A stretch of 64,000 bases of DNA from Hallerella succinigenes (GTDB lineage Bacteria > Fibrobacterota > Fibrobacteria > Fibrobacterales > Fibrobacteraceae): positions 2,170,001 to 2,234,000 of the forward strand of contig NZ_PGEX01000001.1 in NCBI RefSeq assembly GCF_002797675.1. The letters run 5' to 3'. The translations under genes were made by a program, and so were the position numbers. Numbering within the stretch: the stretch's first letter is position 1; each line of letters begins with the position of its first letter. Of the stretch, positions 6,270-58,586 are shown piece by piece. Below the pieces are notes generated by a model that was not told the origin of the DNA, ran no database searches, and saw only the letters and a list, made by a program, of their open reading frames with translations.

Positions 6270-6737
6270 ATGGATTCGAAAAAGATGAAACTCATCTTGG
6301 CGGTCTCTGTTGCGGTTAACGTGGCATTGCTCGTCATCATGTTCGCTCTCAAGAGCGGTTATGCAGAACAGGCCCAGGCATCTTACAAGGTGGCTACTAA
6401 GGCTTACACGGATCAGGTTGCGAAGACGGTGAAAGCCCAGAACGATTTCATCCAGAAGGGAAATCTGATCTGGCAGCTCACTTTCGAAACGACTGCGCAG
6501 AATCTTTCCAAGTCGGCTTTTGACGCTCGCGTCGCAGCTCTCGACGAAGGCAAGCTTTTAAATCCGCAGACATCTGGTGAAGTGACGACCCTTTCTTGTG
6601 GTGAAAACTGCAAGGTTTCGTTCACGTTCAAGGGTGGCAAGTTTGTTTCTGTCGACAACCAGGAACTCGTCGCCCTCTCTCCGTCTGCAACATTCAAGGT
6701 CGAAGCTCCGGCTCCGTTCTCTTTTAAGGAAAAGTAG
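6270..6737 (+). CDS. Hypothetical membrane-anchored protein, paralogue 1
   Basis: A 155-residue protein with a single N-terminal hydrophobic segment at about residues 6-26 (ILAVSVAVNVALLVIMFAL), followed by a helical part (YKVATKAYTDQVAKTVKAQNDF) and a small predicted beta region with two cysteines (SCGENC). A strong GAGGAG ribosome-binding site precedes the ATG. It is probably an inner-membrane protein with a periplasmic domain. The next gene, 8 bases downstream, encodes a protein of the same layout, so the two are tandem paralogues. The function is unknown. Confidence 0.7.
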   Translation: MDSKKMKLILAVSVAVNVALLVIMFALKSGYAEQAQASYKVATKAYTDQVAKTVKAQNDFIQKGNLIWQLTFETTAQNLSKSAFDARVAALDEGKLLNPQTSGEVTTLSCGENCKVSFTFKGGKFVSVDNQELVALSPSATFKVEAPAPFSFKEK

Positions 6738-6745
6738 GAGGAATT

Positions 6746-7249
6746 ATGGCGTCTAAAGTGAAAGTGTTTACGATTGCATCCTTGGCCTTGAACGTCGCAG
6801 TGGCAGGCCTTCTCGTGATGCAGAAGGGTAACTACGTTTCCCAGGCTGAAGAAGCTTACCAGAAAAAGACCAATGCTTATTACAAGCAGGCGACGAACAT
6901 TGTCGAAGGCCAGAACTCGGTCATTGAAAACAATGCGGTCCTTTGGAATCTTGCTTGCTCAGCCAATATGCAGGTGAAAAACTCCAAGGAATTTGCCATT
7001 CTCGAAAAGCGCCTCGCAAACCCGTCGATTTTCTCGAGCAAGGTTCAGGGATCTCCGGACGGTAAGGGCAAACTCCGCACGGTTTCCTGGAACAGCGATT
7101 ATTACATCGTCGCAAGCTTCGACAAGTCGAACAAGCTCATCGGTGTGAATGTGGATGCTCTTCTCGGCAACGCAGACGCTCCGGCTCTTTCCGATGAACC
7201 GGAAGAAGTCGTTGAAACCGATTCCGAACCGGCAGAAGCTGCGGAATAG
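6746..7249 (+). CDS. Hypothetical membrane-anchored protein, paralogue 2
   Basis: A 167-residue sister of the preceding gene: an N-terminal membrane anchor (FTIASLALNVAVAGLLVM), the same tyrosine-rich helix (AYQKKTNAYYKQATNIVEGQNS), a globular part and an acidic Glu/Asp-rich C-terminal tail. AGGAGG lies immediately upstream. The two genes form a bicistronic unit closed by the hairpin at 7271-7297. The shared pattern of anchor, K/Y-rich helix and the conserved N-x-W-x-L region suggests an ancient duplication. No function can be assigned. Confidence 0.7.
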   Translation: MASKVKVFTIASLALNVAVAGLLVMQKGNYVSQAEEAYQKKTNAYYKQATNIVEGQNSVIENNAVLWNLACSANMQVKNSKEFAILEKRLANPSIFSSKVQGSPDGKGKLRTVSWNSDYYIVASFDKSNKLIGVNVDALLGNADAPALSDEPEEVVETDSEPAEAAE

Positions 7250-7270: not shown

Positions 7271-7297
7271 AAAAGGCGGTGCATTGCACCGCCTTTT
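7271..7297. terminator. Bidirectional intrinsic terminator
   Basis: A perfect palindrome (AAAAGGCGGTGCA and its complement) with A and T runs on the two flanks. It lies between the convergent ends of the paralogue pair and the diguanylate cyclase, so it can serve both strands. Confidence 0.85.
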
Positions 7298-7313: not shown

Positions 7314-9131
7314 TTACGCGTCTTTTTCTTTGCTCGAAGAATCCTGCTCGCCTGTGGGAGGCGACTGATTTTCGCTGTTGAACTGACCCTTGGCGTATTT
7401 CAATTCGTCTTTGGCTGCCTTCAAATCGTCTTCGCTGATGTCTTCCGGGTTGAAGAGGACGATCTTGTTTCGACCGGTTTGCTTGCCTTCGTAGAGGGCG
7501 CGGTCCGCGAGGTTGATACTGTAATCCATGCCCAAGCGTTCGTCGTATTCGGCGACGCCCACGGTAACGGTCACGTGCAAGCTTTGATTGGCAAAGCTGA
7601 TTTTGGTTTCTTCAATCTTTTTGCGCAGGCGTTCTGCGACAAGTTTTGCACCGCCGAGAGGTGTTTCCGGTAAGAGCGTGAGGAATTCTTCACCGCCCCA
7701 GCGAGATACGATGTCTTGCTTGCGCAGGCTTTTCTTCATCGTTTCGGCAACGGTTTTCAGCACCAAGTCGCCGCAGATGTGCCCGTAGTGGTCGTTGATG
7801 TCCTTGAACTTGTCAATGTCCACAAAGAGGAACGAGAACTTGCGCTTGGATCTGTCGAAACGGGAAATTTCATAGCTGATCTTTTCGCGGATGTCTCGGC
7901 GGTTCGGGAGCTGTGTCAGTTCATCCGTGCGGGAAATCATTTTTAGAAGTTCATTTGCCTTGGCGAGTTCTTCTGTGCGCTTGTAAACTTCCTGTTCCAA
8001 GTTAGCCTGGTGCTCGGCGAGTGCGGACATTTTTTCGCGGATAGTCAAGCGCATTTTGTCGAACACGCAAGCGAGTACGTGAATTTCATTGTTCTTGGTG
8101 CTCGTGATACCGCTCGATTCTTCGTAATTTCCGTCTGCGATTACAAGCATCTTGTTGATGAGCGCTTGTATCGGGGTTTCGATGCGGTAAAAGATCCAAA
8201 CTGTTATGATGAGAATTGCGATCAAGGAAATAATGCCGATGTACAAGAAAATCTTGCTGAAGGTTTTTGCGGAGGCTTCCACTTCGATCATCGGCTGAAT
8301 GGCGAGAACGCCGAGCTTGATTCGCGGATTGTATTCGTAATTGACCAGGTATTCCTCGCCGTCTATCAAAGTGAAGTTCGGTTGGGATGGGGTAAAGTTC
8401 TTCGCGTTGAACGATTCCAGTCCCAGATCCTGAGCTCTGGCCTGTCCGTTTACCCATTGGCGAATGTTCGGGTGGTAAACGATCACATCGCTTTCATCGA
8501 CGATGACAAAGAAACCTTTATTGCCCAACTTATAAGATTCAAAGATTTCCCATAGGCGGCGGAACGAGAACGAGGCCGCGAGAAAGCCGTTGGCTTTTGC
8601 TCGGTTTTCGACGAGAACAGCGACAATCTTTTTCGGAGTGTGCTGTTCCCAGAAGAGTGGAGAAATGTAAGGATGCTGCGGTTCTACGGCGTTGAAGTCC
8701 TTGAGTTCATGATAAGCGGTATTGACGCGCGCAATTCCGACCATGGAGTTGTCGCTGACCTTTTCATGCTTGGAATTGTAAAGAACAACGTGTTCGCCTG
8801 GAATAAAGAGCGGAGCCACATTGTAACCTTTTAAGAATCCGCCGGATTCTGTTGGGTCCTGGTTTTCAATATAGGGAGTTGTTGCCAAAAGGGTAAGGCG
8901 TCCCAAGAACAAGTCGTATTGCCCTTCGATGACGGTCATCACCTGATGCAGAGAAAGCTTATTCTGTTCCTGGGCTTCTTTTTTAACAAGATTCAATTGA
9001 TTGGAAATCATAAAGATAGCGCCGCCGAAAAGTACGACAAAGAACGCAAGCGCAAACGCCATCAAGCTTCGGAAAGCGATGGTGTTTACTAGTGGGATAT
9101 TACTCTTTATGTTGCCTGTACCTTTTGACAT
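7314..9131 (-). CDS. Membrane diguanylate cyclase with periplasmic sensor (Cache-HAMP-GGDEF)
   Basis: A 605-residue sensor enzyme that makes cyclic di-GMP. An N-terminal membrane helix (about 22-44) is followed by a Cache-like periplasmic domain to about 300, a second membrane helix (FLYIGIISLIAILIITVW), a HAMP-like linker, a coiled coil and the GGDEF domain. The active-site motif is GGEEF at 479-483, preceded by an intact inhibitory I-site R470-K-Q-D473, so product inhibition is expected. It lies 12 bases after the solute-binding protein gene on the same strand, which suggests that ligand capture feeds this cyclase. A Ser/Lys/Glu-rich tail ends the protein. Confidence 0.9.
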   Translation of the reverse strand: MSKGTGNIKSNIPLVNTIAFRSLMAFALAFFVVLFGGAIFMISNQLNLVKKEAQEQNKLSLHQVMTVIEGQYDLFLGRLTLLATTPYIENQDPTESGGFLKGYNVAPLFIPGEHVVLYNSKHEKVSDNSMVGIARVNTAYHELKDFNAVEPQHPYISPLFWEQHTPKKIVAVLVENRAKANGFLAASFSFRRLWEIFESYKLGNKGFFVIVDESDVIVYHPNIRQWVNGQARAQDLGLESFNAKNFTPSQPNFTLIDGEEYLVNYEYNPRIKLGVLAIQPMIEVEASAKTFSKIFLYIGIISLIAILIITVWIFYRIETPIQALINKMLVIADGNYEESSGITSTKNNEIHVLACVFDKMRLTIREKMSALAEHQANLEQEVYKRTEELAKANELLKMISRTDELTQLPNRRDIREKISYEISRFDRSKRKFSFLFVDIDKFKDINDHYGHICGDLVLKTVAETMKKSLRKQDIVSRWGGEEFLTLLPETPLGGAKLVAERLRKKIEETKISFANQSLHVTVTVGVAEYDERLGMDYSINLADRALYEGKQTGRNKIVLFNPEDISEDDLKAAKDELKYAKGQFNSENQSPPTGEQDSSSKEKDA

Positions 9132-9143
9132 TAGACTAAACCT

Positions 9144-10676
9144 TTATTTTTTCCGTTTACGTATGATCGTTACAATGAAGCCGGAGAATACGGCGAGAAG
9201 GAAAATGATAGCGGTAAAGCCGATTTGCTTATTGGAACCATCTTTTGCTTCTGCTGAATCTATAGTTTTACTCACAGAATCTACAGCGTTGACTTGATGT
9301 GTGGTGACTTTTTTCCAAAGCGCGAGGAACTCGTCTAACCGCATGGGAGGAGTCGTATTGGCCGGAGCGTGCAAGATATCGTTGATCTTTTGGTTGTGAG
9401 TTAAAAGCGTGCTGTACATTGCTTCTTCGGAATAGAGACCTCCGATGTCGAGATAGCCCCAAATGTCGCTAAAGAGATTGATCAATGCGCCTTCCACAAG
9501 CGTCCATTCCGGAATGTTCGGGTAGTTGCGACCGTCTTCTAAGTGATCGATCAAAACCTTATAAGAAGAATCCTTTGCCCACGTATTCAAAACGTCGGTA
9601 ACAGGCGGAAGGAATCCGATTTGCTTTGTATAAGCGTGCAGGTTGTCGTCGCGAATGAGGAATTTCAAAAGCTTGACTGCATTGGCGTTCTTCGCTTTGG
9701 AAGCCGGGATGGCAAGGTTACTTCCACCGATGAAGCAGACGCTGCCCGCCTTGCCAGCCGGAACCGGCATGATGTCGATGCCATCGGCACTGATTGTCGA
9801 AGCGGCAAGACCGCCGATGGCGGCTTCATAACGGATTTGCATCACGAGTTCGGCCGTGTTCAGAATGAAACCGAGTTCGCCATTGTTAAAAAGTTGAACG
9901 ATTTGTGCGGTATTGTGTCGCAAATTCGCCTTATCCACCAGGGAATCCATCACGAAGTTAAGGTAAGCGGCGATGCCTTCAATCGTGTTCGGGTCCAGGA
10001 GGTTAGAATGCCAAGCTCCATGATCATCTTTTTTGACAAAGGATCCGCCTGCGGACCAAACCCACGGAGCGAAGTTATGCGGAATGTTCCAGTCGCTCTT
10101 GCCCGGGAATGCGAAGGCTCGAATCTTGAATCCGTCTTTGCTCTGCAGGTTAAGATTATTGATCTTCTTTAAGGATTGGTAGAAACCTTCATAGGTTGCC
10201 ACATCTTTGGCGGTTATGCCGGCTTTTGCCAAAATGGACTTATTCACCATGAGAGCGCGGGCGTCAATGAACCAAGGAATCGAATAGGTCGCAGAATCAC
10301 CATCCGTACCGGTGGTCTTCCAGCTGACTTTCATAAAACGCTCTGGTTTGATTTCGGGGAGATAGGCATCGAGTTTTGCCAGCTGGCCGCGAGAGGCGAA
10401 ATAGGAAATCCAGGTAGTGCCGAGCTGCAAAACATCCGGCGCGTTTTGCTTGCCTTCCAAGACGGAGGTGATCAAACTCCAGGCTTCGCCCCAGTCAAGA
10501 ACTTTCACCTTGGTTTTTAAGCCAGTCTCTTGTTCAAAAAGCGCAAGACGCTGTTCGAGCATTCCCTGCGGGTTTGCTCCGTTTGGCATAATCCAAACTT
10601 CAAGTGGTTGGGCTGCAACCAATCCTGCGATAAGCAGTAGCACAGCTAAAAAACGCAAAAAAACTCTTTGAGGCAT
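9144..10676 (-). CDS. Family 1 extracellular solute-binding protein with C-terminal membrane anchor
   Basis: A roughly 510-residue protein with a signal peptide (FLRFLAVLLLIAGLVAA) and a full sugar-type ABC solute-binding fold (EVWIMPNGANPQGML, PDVLQLGTTWISYFASRGQL). Unusually it ends in a transmembrane helix (IGFTAIIFLLAVFSGFIVTI) followed by RKRKK, so it should be tethered in the inner membrane facing the periplasm. No ABC permease or ATPase genes are adjacent; the next gene is a diguanylate cyclase. I chose the ATG at 10676 because AGGAG lies 6 bases upstream; the ATG at 10682 abuts that site, and a much longer frame has no family support. Inference: a periplasmic sensor, not an importer. 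Confidence 0.85.
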   Translation of the reverse strand: MPQRVFLRFLAVLLLIAGLVAAQPLEVWIMPNGANPQGMLEQRLALFEQETGLKTKVKVLDWGEAWSLITSVLEGKQNAPDVLQLGTTWISYFASRGQLAKLDAYLPEIKPERFMKVSWKTTGTDGDSATYSIPWFIDARALMVNKSILAKAGITAKDVATYEGFYQSLKKINNLNLQSKDGFKIRAFAFPGKSDWNIPHNFAPWVWSAGGSFVKKDDHGAWHSNLLDPNTIEGIAAYLNFVMDSLVDKANLRHNTAQIVQLFNNGELGFILNTAELVMQIRYEAAIGGLAASTISADGIDIMPVPAGKAGSVCFIGGSNLAIPASKAKNANAVKLLKFLIRDDNLHAYTKQIGFLPPVTDVLNTWAKDSSYKVLIDHLEDGRNYPNIPEWTLVEGALINLFSDIWGYLDIGGLYSEEAMYSTLLTHNQKINDILHAPANTTPPMRLDEFLALWKKVTTHQVNAVDSVSKTIDSAEAKDGSNKQIGFTAIIFLLAVFSGFIVTIIRKRKK

Positions 10677-36681: not shown

Positions 36682-38547
36682 ATGTCTGATATTTTATATG
36701 TCGCTTCCGGTTTGCTTATCGGCCTTGCTTTCAAAGGCGGACTGTTTCTTTTTGCGATTCCTGGTGCGCTGATCGCGCTGGTGCTTGCTTGGTTGAATCG
36801 TCCGAGCTTGCCGACGTCCAAGGCGCATACGGCGACCGTGCCTGTGCTGCGTGCAACGCGTACAACGGATGCAACAGCCATCGGTCGTATTCTGCGCCCG
36901 GCGGTGACCCAGACGAGTCAGACTCTTTCTGCCCGCGACACCTTTACCGCTTTTCCGGGTGACGGGGAATCTTCGCTCGACAAGCTCAAAGGCAATGAAA
37001 TTTGGAATAAGCTTGAACGCGATCTGGATCCGATTTACCGCTCTGTCTTGCGTTCCATTCAAACCTTGATTCCGAAGACACACTCGGTTCTTTTGTTGCT
37101 GAAGACGTTGGACGGAAAATCTTTTGCCATTCGTCAATTCTCGTCGACTGCGGAAAATGAAATCAACATGAATGCCCGCATTTTGGATGGCGTGGGCATT
37201 GTGGGGCAGCTGGCTAGTCGCGACGTGAACCGTATTCTCGAAGGGGATTTGTTAAACGGAAAGAGTTTAGGCTATTATTTGACGATTCCCGCCATTCATT
37301 CGGTGGCAGGCGTTCCGATGTTCAATAACAAGAATCAGCGAGTGGGCGCTCTCGTCATTGACTCTCTGGAACAGAACGCATTCAATGCGAACTTGATTCC
37401 GATTCTCGACAGTTTCGCTTCGATGTTCCACATGCTCACGTATAAGAGCTTCACTTCGGCTTCGAACTACCGGGAAAAGAAGAAGTTCTACGAACTTTCC
37501 GCGTATCAGCAGAAGTTCTTCAAAACGACGCTTTTGAAGGATACCTACAAGGAAATCTTTGAATACGTCAGCCAGAACTTTAGCGCCGACCGTATTATGA
37601 TTCTTGTCTTTGACAACATGGATCAGGAACAGGGTACGGTGGCATTTTGCCGTGGTGAAGACGAACGTCTTTTTGAAGGTCGTCACTTCTCGCTTTCGGA
37701 CAAGGGCATTTTGCCACTTGCCATGATGCAGCATACAGCAACGGAACGCGTTTTCACGGGCCGTGATTACGTGCTGCGTTTAAACGATGCGGAACCGCGC
37801 AATAATTCGCTCCGCTATCTCTTTGTGCAGCCGAGCTCCATGACCATGCGCAATGCATCGTTAAACCGCCCTTCGGAAATCGCCATCTGTATTGAACGTC
37901 GCCAGGCGCTTAAGTTCGAACAGTTCGAAAAGGATTTGCTCCGCTTTATGGTGAACATCGCCTACTTTGCTTATCAGCGCGGTATGCAGTTTGAACATGA
38001 ACAGTTCGAAATTTACCACGATGCTCTGACCGGCCTTTTGAACCGTCGAACGATTGATTCGAAGCTAGCTGAACTCAACCGAGTTCATCAGGAAAAGGAC
38101 GTCGGTGTCATGATGATGGATATCGACCACTTTAAGCATATCAACGACACCTACGGTCACCAGGCAGGCGATACGATTCTCAAGGGAATTGCGGCTCGTA
38201 TTTCGTCGGTGGCAAACAAGGGCGAAAATCTGCTTGCTCGCTACGGGGGTGAAGAATTCTTTGTCGCCATTCCGGGGGCGACTCAAGAAATTCTGAAGGA
38301 TACAGCAGAAGCGATTCGCGTTGCCGTCAATTCTTCTCCATTTGACATTCAGCAGGGATCTCCGATTCCAGTGACGGTCAGCATTGGATGTTACCTTGCG
38401 ACAAGAAGTTTCCAGGGAGAAATGACCCGCGCTGTGCATTACGCTGATGACGCTCTTTACAGCGCCAAGGAAGGCGGAAGAAACCGTGTGGTTGAATATC
38501 AGGAACGTGATTTTGAACCGGAAGATGCGCAGACGGAGAACGCATAA
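36682..38547 (+). CDS. Diguanylate cyclase with membrane anchor and GAF-like domain
   Basis: A 621-residue protein: two short N-terminal membrane segments (ILYVASGLLIGLAF, LFLFAIPGALIALVLAWL), a linker, a GAF-like sensory region at about 100-430, then GGDEF with the active motif GGEEF at 522-526. The I-site position reads KGEN, so product inhibition should be absent, unlike the cyclase at 7.3-9.1 kb. ATG 36682 was preferred to TTG 36670. The stop abuts the ATG of the sodium symporter, so the two are co-translated. Confidence 0.85.
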   Translation: MSDILYVASGLLIGLAFKGGLFLFAIPGALIALVLAWLNRPSLPTSKAHTATVPVLRATRTTDATAIGRILRPAVTQTSQTLSARDTFTAFPGDGESSLDKLKGNEIWNKLERDLDPIYRSVLRSIQTLIPKTHSVLLLLKTLDGKSFAIRQFSSTAENEINMNARILDGVGIVGQLASRDVNRILEGDLLNGKSLGYYLTIPAIHSVAGVPMFNNKNQRVGALVIDSLEQNAFNANLIPILDSFASMFHMLTYKSFTSASNYREKKKFYELSAYQQKFFKTTLLKDTYKEIFEYVSQNFSADRIMILVFDNMDQEQGTVAFCRGEDERLFEGRHFSLSDKGILPLAMMQHTATERVFTGRDYVLRLNDAEPRNNSLRYLFVQPSSMTMRNASLNRPSEIAICIERRQALKFEQFEKDLLRFMVNIAYFAYQRGMQFEHEQFEIYHDALTGLLNRRTIDSKLAELNRVHQEKDVGVMMMDIDHFKHINDTYGHQAGDTILKGIAARISSVANKGENLLARYGGEEFFVAIPGATQEILKDTAEAIRVAVNSSPFDIQQGSPIPVTVSIGCYLATRSFQGEMTRAVHYADDALYSAKEGGRNRVVEYQERDFEPEDAQTENA

Positions 38548-57433: not shown

Positions 57434-58586
57434 ATGTACGAAATTAATTTGCCTGAGATTTATATTGCGGATGCGTTGGGCATTTTTTTTGATGCTCAAT
57501 GTCTTGTTTAGCGGTTCGTGGAAATTACAGAAAAAACGGAAAGAAGATAAAATCCTGCTCGGCATGATTATCACGATTTTTATTTCGTGTATTGCCGACG
57601 TGGTCACTTTTACGGTGGACGGGCTTCCGGGAACTATATTCCGAAATGTCGCTTACGCTTCAAATTTTGTGCTTTTCCTTGGAAACCTGTTCATTGGGCC
57701 TTTGTGGCTGATGATGATATTAAAGCATATTGGGGGTCGAATTCCGAAGGGGCAGCAGATTTTTACGGCGGTTGTGTCGGGATTCGGCTTTCTGTTGTTG
57801 CTATTGAATTTTGTTTATCCGATTCTTTTCTGCTTGGACGATGCGAACCGCTATTCTCGGGGTTCTTTATTCTGGATCAACAATTTGATTGAAGCTCTCT
57901 TTATGCTGGATAGCATCGCTTATTATTTGCTCATGCGCTTCCAGAATGGCGGTCTTAAATTCTTCCCTGTGATGCAGTTCTTTTTGCCCGTTTTTGTTTG
58001 CGTAGCGGTACAGAATGCGTGGTATGGAATTTCAACGATTTGGGTCGGTATTGCAGTCGGTGTGACGGGCATGAACCTTGCCCTGCAAAATGAAAATATT
58101 TTCATCGATAAATTGACGGGTCTTTTTAACCGTTACTATTTGGATAAGGTTGTGGAAGAAATGGGCAAGCGTCGTGGCTTTGTCATGATGATGCTCGATT
58201 TGAACGACTTTAAGCTGATCAATGATACTTACGGACATTCTCGTGGGGATGAAGCGCTTGCGGCGATGGCGGAAATTTTGCGAGATTCCATGGGCACTTG
58301 TGGAACGGCTATCCGCTATGCGGGCGACGAATTCGTGATTCTTGTGAACTCCGATCTACCGGGGATTGCGGAACGCTATGAAAAGCGCATTCGCAAAAAT
58401 GTGGATTTGTACAATGAACGAAGCTTAAAAAAGTACGCTCTCTCGGTTTCCATCGGAAGCGGCTACTTTAATCTGAAGGACAACAGCGTCGACGATATTT
58501 TGGAAATCATCGATAAGCGTATGTACGACGATAAACGCAGCTTTTATGAATCGGGCCATCTTCCCGATCGTAGACGTCAGGGATAA
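57434..58586 (+). CDS. Membrane GGDEF protein interrupted by a frame shift at a T8 run
   Basis: An ATG at 57434 reads MYEINLPEIYIADALGIFF and would stop after 25 codons. The rest of the gene is in another frame, open from 57465, and reads FLMLNVLFSGSW with six membrane helices and a GGDEF domain (DKLTGLFNRYY, AGDEF). The two frames join perfectly if the run of eight T at 57483-57490 were seven, so the gene is broken, phase variable or read by slippage. The variant motif AGDEF can be active in some cyclases; there is no I-site. If the upstream part is not used, the product would start at TTG 57465 or ATG 57471, with poor ribosome-binding signals. Confidence 0.75.

Follow-up and report, generated by a model that had tools for sequence, protein, structure and literature searches.

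Gene layout and domain architecture

The locus lies in a window of 64,000 nt, the whole stretch of DNA analysed here, whose positions serve as coordinates throughout; the genome carrying it, from a Fibrobacter-type bacterium that degrades fibre in the gut, is 3.13 Mb in a single contig. Two neighbouring genes on the minus strand encode a tethered solute-binding protein (SBP; P0001) and a predicted diguanylate cyclase (P0002) (Table 1). Their boundaries are exactly those of an earlier, preliminary description of this DNA, and the gap of 12 bases it gave from the SBP gene to the cyclase gene was likewise measured as 12 nt. Upstream of the pair is a divergent gene for an MFS transporter and downstream a convergent gene, which together with the hairpin terminator indicates that the SBP and cyclase genes form a unit of their own.

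Table 1. Features of the SBP-cyclase locus, in window coordinates
Feature	Position	Strand	Basis
Tethered solute-binding protein gene P0001 (510 aa, SBP_bac_1)	9144..10676	-	sequence and Pfam profile
Likely ribosome-binding site AGGAG of P0001	directly upstream of ATG 10676	-	sequence
Signal peptide, residues 1-22, SPase I type (cleavage VAA/Q), no lipobox	10611..10676	-	direct sequence reading
Periplasmic SBP domain, residues 23-435	9372..10610	-	PDB matches 7c63, 7x0i
Flexible periplasmic linker, approximately residues 460-484	9225..9299	-	model pLDDT <50; 21% pairwise identity
C-terminal transmembrane helix (residues 485-504) and cytosolic RKRKK tail	9147..9224	-	hydropathy, positive tail, helix in model
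Diguanylate cyclase gene P0002 (605 aa, TM1-dCache-TM2-HAMP-coil-GGDEF)	7314..9131	-	profiles, alignment, model
Periplasmic dCache domain, residues 46-290	8262..8996	-	AlphaFold model, PDB fold search, dCache_1 2.4e-9 (below Pfam cut-off)
TM2 and HAMP, residues 293-370	8022..8255	-	profile, model; HAMP of paralogue L147 above cut-off
GGDEF domain, residues 402-556	7464..7928	-	PF00990 3.3e-47
I-site RKQD, residues 470-473	7713..7724	-	R470, K471, D473 invariant
GGEEF active-site loop, residues 479-483	7683..7697	-	invariant
Hairpin terminator between convergent genes, closing the two-gene unit	7271..7297	.	12-bp stem, then T-rich tail

P0001 is a member of SBP_bac_1 (PF01547 over residues 42-344, 1.9e-29, 104.1 bits against a cut-off of 26). 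Direct reading bears out the claim that it carries a signal peptide, which is of SPase I type (MPQRVFLRFLAVLLLIAGLVAA followed by QPLEV) and lacks a lipobox; the residues preceding the mature start vary among orthologues. A hydrophobic helix at about residues 485-504 ends in RKRKK, as the preliminary description had also reported, and this C-terminal anchor is retained throughout 61 non-redundant pairs, in which the mean Kyte-Doolittle value of the best C-terminal 19-mer never falls below 1.48 (median 1.97) and every SBP has three or more K/R among its final nine residues. Such retention of both hydropathy and basic tail argues that the tether is no chance feature. Mean identity among pairs is 65% over the SBP domain and just 21% over the linker, which fits a flexible tether. 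The SBPs of Gram-negative bacteria have been described as diffusible in the periplasm (PMC9602780), and a conserved transmembrane tether is therefore unusual in itself. In a tree of SBPs the tethered proteins form one clade (support 1.0) that is separate from ABC-linked SBPs (0.95).

The assignment of P0002 as a Cache-HAMP-GGDEF cyclase with an intact I-site also stood up to profile, structural and alignment evidence. In addition to the PF00990 match, the metal-binding residues D438, N446 and D447 are invariant and a GGEEF motif is present. The inhibitory RxxD site (R470-K-Q-D473) sits five residues before this motif, and an alignment of 19 orthologues shows no variation in either R470-K-x-D473 or G479-G-E-E-F483, so that P0002 is a predicted diguanylate cyclase with conserved catalytic and I-site residues. 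Profile matches in the sensory part are to dCache_1 with a score of 37.5, below the Pfam cut-off of 45, and weakly to HAMP (0.026). When an AlphaFold model of the ectodomain (pLDDT 84, pTM 0.74) is compared with experimental structures, the best fold matches are chemoreceptor dCache domains (target-normalised TM-scores up to 0.77), which points to a predicted double-Cache fold between two transmembrane helices.

Conservation of the gene pair

The preliminary description had proposed that the two proteins form a receptor, and had suggested searching for the same pair in other genomes, a lack of joint conservation counting against the proposal. In profile searches of 125 genomes of the class together with the window's own genome, the cyclase gene was found directly downstream and on the same strand in 83 of 83 orthologous SBP genes, which derive from 81 Fibrobacteraceae genomes and include one copy (G006) with its frame broken in two. 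A separate genome scan recovered the same pairing, with intergenic gaps mostly of 2-51 nt. Genus g6 and several other genomes encode neither gene. The genes flanking the pair are widely common within the window's genus; across genera, the window flanks have 0 genes in common with the loci of g2, g3, g5, g7 and g11 and one gene in common with one g4 locus. Since flanks are not kept between genera, the linkage of SBP and cyclase is not mere inherited synteny, and linkage without synteny is strong comparative evidence that the two would act as a functional unit. The retention of the pair across the family while its neighbours change makes it most likely a two-part receptor that converts sugars outside the cell into an internal lifestyle signal.

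Search for a permease partner and sister SBPs

No ABC permease or ATPase gene is adjacent to P0001 in the window, nor to its orthologues in the pair loci, so that the earlier statement that permease genes are lacking holds locally. A clear permease partner elsewhere in the genome had been named as a second finding that would count against a receptor. The genome encodes 15 BPD_transp_1 domains, and the clusters read, which leave out two permease pairs near 1.08 and 1.79 Mb, belong to other system types or have their own binding protein; none of them is an evident partner for P0001, which among these clusters has neither the adjacent nor the dedicated permease and ATPase of an ABC-importer SBP. 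The only sugar-type permease set (L198, C1:2932500-2941500) comprises its own lipoprotein SBP, ATPase and permeases. It is this set, given that an ABC system may draw on additional SBPs, that would allow P0001 to be a transport protein for a permease encoded elsewhere, with the cyclase either incidental or sampling a transport SBP. We give this explanation almost no credence, however, as the lipoprotein SBP of the set, the genome's other close SBP, is just 31% identical to P0001 and the tethered and ABC-linked SBPs fall into separate clades.

A second group of tethered SBPs, 33-41% identical, adjoins a gene for a fusion of a D-Ala-D-Ala carboxypeptidase (S13) and an AmiA-like amidase, a peptidoglycan hydrolase. 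These SBPs were considered as unpaired orthologues and rejected, as they constitute a sister clade beside the S13/AmiA-like gene. Their genomic context means that tethering alone is no proof of signalling. An apparent SBP fusion of 1387 aa (L070, G042) was also set aside; it looks like an artefact of open reading frame read-in, with an SBP bearing its own lipoprotein-like signal starting inside it.

Orphan cyclases and exchange of the output domain

A single clade holds the 13 cyclases that have no SBP gene beside them, ten of them in genomes lacking the paired type and three in genomes that also have it. The G031 cyclase, a candidate for a broken pair, belongs to this clade and was rejected as such. 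Relatives of P0002 can thus exist without an SBP. The orphan clade departs from the SBP-linked set at 12 of the 37 Cache positions that are conserved in the latter, versus 3 of 96 positions in HAMP-GGDEF (Fisher p=1.2e-5), and 9 of the 12 lie in residues 46-160, the N-terminal and presumably membrane-distal half of the Cache domain. These changes, in one clade and read from alignments, would be in keeping with a docking surface that had become dispensable, and with a changed direct ligand too. The SBP-linked state at the 12 positions may simply be ancestral.

Outside the family, the sensor is found with a different output. A genome from another family of the same phylum (G138) encodes an SBP with a signal peptide and C-terminal helix that is 31% identical to P0001 over its full length, helix included. 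A spacer of 223 nt separates its gene from a divergently oriented one that encodes a TM-Cache-TM-HAMP protein (25% identity to P0002, hhalign 99.8%), the C-terminal part of which is read as CheA-like from its similarity to P0003, a protein with Hpt and HATPase matches. In a class-level relative (G040), a Cache-HAMP module is fused to Hpt and HATPase domains; an SBP gene whose product is 48% identical to P0001 runs off one contig end and the Cache-kinase gene is cut by another, an arrangement that only suggests adjacency. Of the 12 diagnostic Cache positions, the G138 kinase has the SBP-linked residue at 7 and the orphan residue at 1, and the G040 kinase has them at 6 and 0, while the other differing columns in G138 are without bias towards either state (15 vs 14 of 128). 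The occurrence of the same Cache-HAMP sensor with a kinase output beside the G138 tethered SBP suggests that the SBP goes with the Cache sensor whatever the output, and in the two relatives taken together the constant element would be tethered SBP plus Cache, with the output varying. We regard this exchange, as read from gene content, as the strongest single argument that the SBP may be a co-receptor.

These observations bear on a further explanation, that the cyclase detects a small ligand through its dCache domain without help from the SBP, which would be co-transcribed for some other reason. dCache domains do usually bind ligands directly, the best fold matches of the P0002 ectodomain are to amino-acid chemoreceptor domains, and SBP-less paralogues exist. 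Set against this are a linkage maintained at all 83 orthologous SBP genes despite the loss of almost all other synteny, the recurrence of the SBP-Cache association with a kinase output, and the specific alteration of the Cache domain in the paralogues that lack an SBP, in light of which we judge direct sensing to be improbable.

Two approaches addressed the contact between SBP and Cache itself. The cyclase gene continues the reading frame of the SBP gene beyond its stop, and a read-through chain, used as a modelling device only, was predicted with AF2 from 20 paired orthologues. The co-structure prediction proposed in the preliminary description was in this way realised in part: the individual domains folded well, but the chain (pTM 0.57) yielded no usable interface, the prediction returning no inter-domain error and domain placement being uninformative. 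Mutual information between SBP and cyclase columns in the 61 pairs was not enriched in the Cache domain.

Ligand of the tethered SBP

The nearest solved structures to P0001 are a beta-glucoside-binding protein of Thermus thermophilus (7c63, 7.8e-61) and CbpB of Clostridium thermocellum (7x0i, 4.4e-51), the latter of which has low-micromolar or better affinity for cellodextrins and binds laminaribiose less tightly (PMC9601137). Both are transport SBPs with no cyclase partner described, and their matches, closest over the SBP domain, stop near residue 424-436 of P0001, before the C-terminal helix. Three point mutants of the Thermus protein (7c6x, 7c6z, 7c71) alter the Trp residues in the VLDWG and GTTW segments and the Glu in PWFSE. 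The equivalents in P0001 are W62, W89 and D138, two identical and the third a change of Glu to Asp, and all three are invariant in the 61 non-redundant pairs, as would be anticipated of conserved sugar-site residues. We infer that these are ligand residues because their equivalents were mutated in the Thermus structure series. Whether the SBP ligand is a beta-linked gluco-oligosaccharide we consider an even call. An oligosaccharide from plant fibre, as raised in the preliminary description, is plausible given the homology to binders of beta-glucosides and cellodextrins, the conserved residues, and the published link between growth on cellulose and c-di-GMP (PMC6851124).

The receptor could instead recognise another beta-linked saccharide, such as a fragment of peptidoglycan or chitin, and so report on the envelope or on neighbouring cells and not on food, a reading encouraged by the sister tethered SBPs beside the S13/AmiA-like fusion gene and by the occurrence of the pair in apparently non-gut genomes too. 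The linkage between GlcNAc and MurNAc is moreover beta-1,4, like that of cellobiose. We nevertheless hold this ligand class to be rather unlikely, for cellodextrins and laminaribiose are the ligands of the nearest relatives of known structure (PMC9601137), residues at the three mutated sites are matched in all pairs, and most hosts are fibre degraders of the gut.

A proposed two-protein receptor

The two-protein receptor of the preliminary description is supported by the 83/83 pairing, flanks that are unshared with most genera, the lack of an evident permease partner among the clusters read, the exchange of outputs and the separate clade of tethered SBPs. We posit that the SBP and the Cache cyclase probably constitute such a receptor, in which the SBP is a membrane-tethered carbohydrate co-receptor controlling c-di-GMP. 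Once secreted, the SBP would stay anchored at the outer side of the inner membrane, held there by the C-terminal helix through a linker of approximately 25 residues, and would close on a carbohydrate, probably a beta-linked gluco-oligosaccharide. The ligand-closed form may then dock on the periplasmic dCache dimer of the neighbouring cyclase, and movement transmitted through TM2 and HAMP could alter the activity of the GGDEF dimer and with it cytosolic c-di-GMP, the I-site providing putative product feedback on the cyclase. Holding the SBP near its partner by a tether would make a large periplasmic pool unnecessary. Physical docking, the identity of the ligand and the downstream phenotype are the parts of this scheme that we infer, and activation as the sign of the effect is a default guess by analogy with NspS-MbaA.

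A broader history is possible, if somewhat less probable than not, in which this SBP clade of the phylum left transport, gained a C-terminal anchor and became an interchangeable sensory subunit. One and the same pairing of tethered SBP and Cache would then act on c-di-GMP synthesis in the Fibrobacteraceae and on a CheA-like phosphorelay in relatives, with a sister group attached to a cell-wall hydrolase. If true, no carbohydrate SBP would have been shown before to set c-di-GMP, and the elevated c-di-GMP of Fibrobacter grown on cellulose may find its explanation here.

Comparison with known systems

Fibrobacter is a major degrader of cellulose in the guts of herbivores. The c-di-GMP level of F. 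succinogenes S85 is approximately 2.5x higher on cellulose versus glucose, and the conditions sensed by its up-regulated GGDEF proteins are stated as unknown (PMC6851124). Literature on Fibrobacter mentioning both an SBP and a diguanylate cyclase was not found to describe the pair, the nearest report being the same one, as far as its accessible text goes. The pair is a family-wide candidate sensor.

Receptors of comparable logic are known. In the NspS-MbaA systems of Vibrio cholerae and Sinorhizobium meliloti, the ligand state of a periplasmic binding protein sets the activity of a c-di-GMP enzyme in the inner membrane that is encoded with it or requires it (PMC8967002, PMC9993111), and as there, the SBP gene described here adjoins the gene of a membrane c-di-GMP enzyme in all 83 cases. 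NspS, however, is soluble and binds polyamines, and MbaA is a bifunctional GGDEF-EAL protein, whereas here a tethered protein of the sugar family SBP_bac_1 is encoded beside a pure GGDEF enzyme; the PotD model scores far below its cut-off on P0001 and no EAL domain is found in P0002. ArtI-STM1987 is a further c-di-GMP receptor driven by an SBP, and its sensor is also dCache_1 (PMC8846402). On the sugar side, CuaD of Ruminiclostridium cellulolyticum is a cellobiose sensor that binds CuaS whether or not cellobiose is present (PMC10384115). CuaD-CuaSR and XylFII-LytS of Clostridium beijerinckii both resemble the present pair in that a sugar SBP for sensing, separate from the one for transport, adjoins a membrane receptor; they differ in being Gram-positive, and CuaD is anchored as a lipoprotein and has a histidine kinase and gene expression as output, in contrast to the C-terminal helix and c-di-GMP here.

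SBP-driven c-di-GMP receptors (PMC8967002, PMC8846402) and sensory sugar SBPs apart from transport (PMC10384115) are therefore already known, and what appears to be new, judging from the predicted proteins, is the use of a carbohydrate SBP as input to a cyclase, the anchoring of a Gram-negative SBP by a C-terminal transmembrane tether, and an exchangeable output. A 2022 review lists SBP_bac_3 as the only family within the periplasmic-binding-protein clan studied in c-di-GMP networks (PMC8846402), and a carbohydrate SBP controlling a cyclase would thus add a new class of input to those networks.

Genomic context of the cyclase and c-di-GMP inventory

Convergent with the gene for P0002, the dCache-HAMP-GGDEF diguanylate cyclase, are two small genes lying side by side and conserved in the genus, encoding proteins of 155 and 167 aa that are alike in layout and each carry a hydrophobic segment at the N-terminus; the second has no Pfam match. 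The Hallerella succinigenes genome encodes 16 GGDEF domains, two of which lie in the window besides that of P0002, and a single PilZ domain was found in it. Another genus of Fibrobacteraceae (g2) holds a clade of P0002 paralogues without an adjacent solute-binding protein (SBP) gene, and in three of its genomes such a paralogue coexists with an SBP-linked copy. The ORF at L191 begins with an unrelated lipoprotein-like sequence.

Relatives of the tethered SBP

In a sister clade whose SBPs also carry a C-terminal tether, the downstream neighbour encodes a D-Ala-D-Ala carboxypeptidase (S13), fused to an AmiA-like amidase where tested (L060), and aroA adjoins the SBP gene where the contig reaches that far. 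These are sugar-binding proteins apparently linked to cell-wall hydrolysis.

Other SBP relatives are apparently leaderless: in Anaerolineales they are flanked by LacI-type regulator and glycosidase-like genes, and one Elusimicrobiota genome carries three of them in tandem. Relatives of P0001, the SBP of the window, that apparently lack a signal peptide also immediately precede genes for GAF-GGDEF proteins in which no membrane domain is evident (L139, L145). This arrangement looks as if a cytosolic sugar-binding protein were partnered with a cytosolic cyclase.

Features in the window and at related loci
Feature	Position or locus	Source
Small-protein gene pair	6270-7249	window
GGDEF domain	38014-38487	window
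GGDEF domain	58101-58538	window
SBP-less cyclase paralogues	L147, L180-L191	genus g2
Sister-clade tethered SBPs	L054, L056, L057, L058, L060, L066; also L125, L132, L133	
Further apparently leaderless SBP relatives	L141 1945-3195; L142 6016-7224; L138 5992-9721	Anaerolineales and one Elusimicrobiota genome
Apparently leaderless SBP relative with GAF-GGDEF gene	L139 600-3398; L145 6007-8686	Omnitrophica and Elusimicrobia genomes
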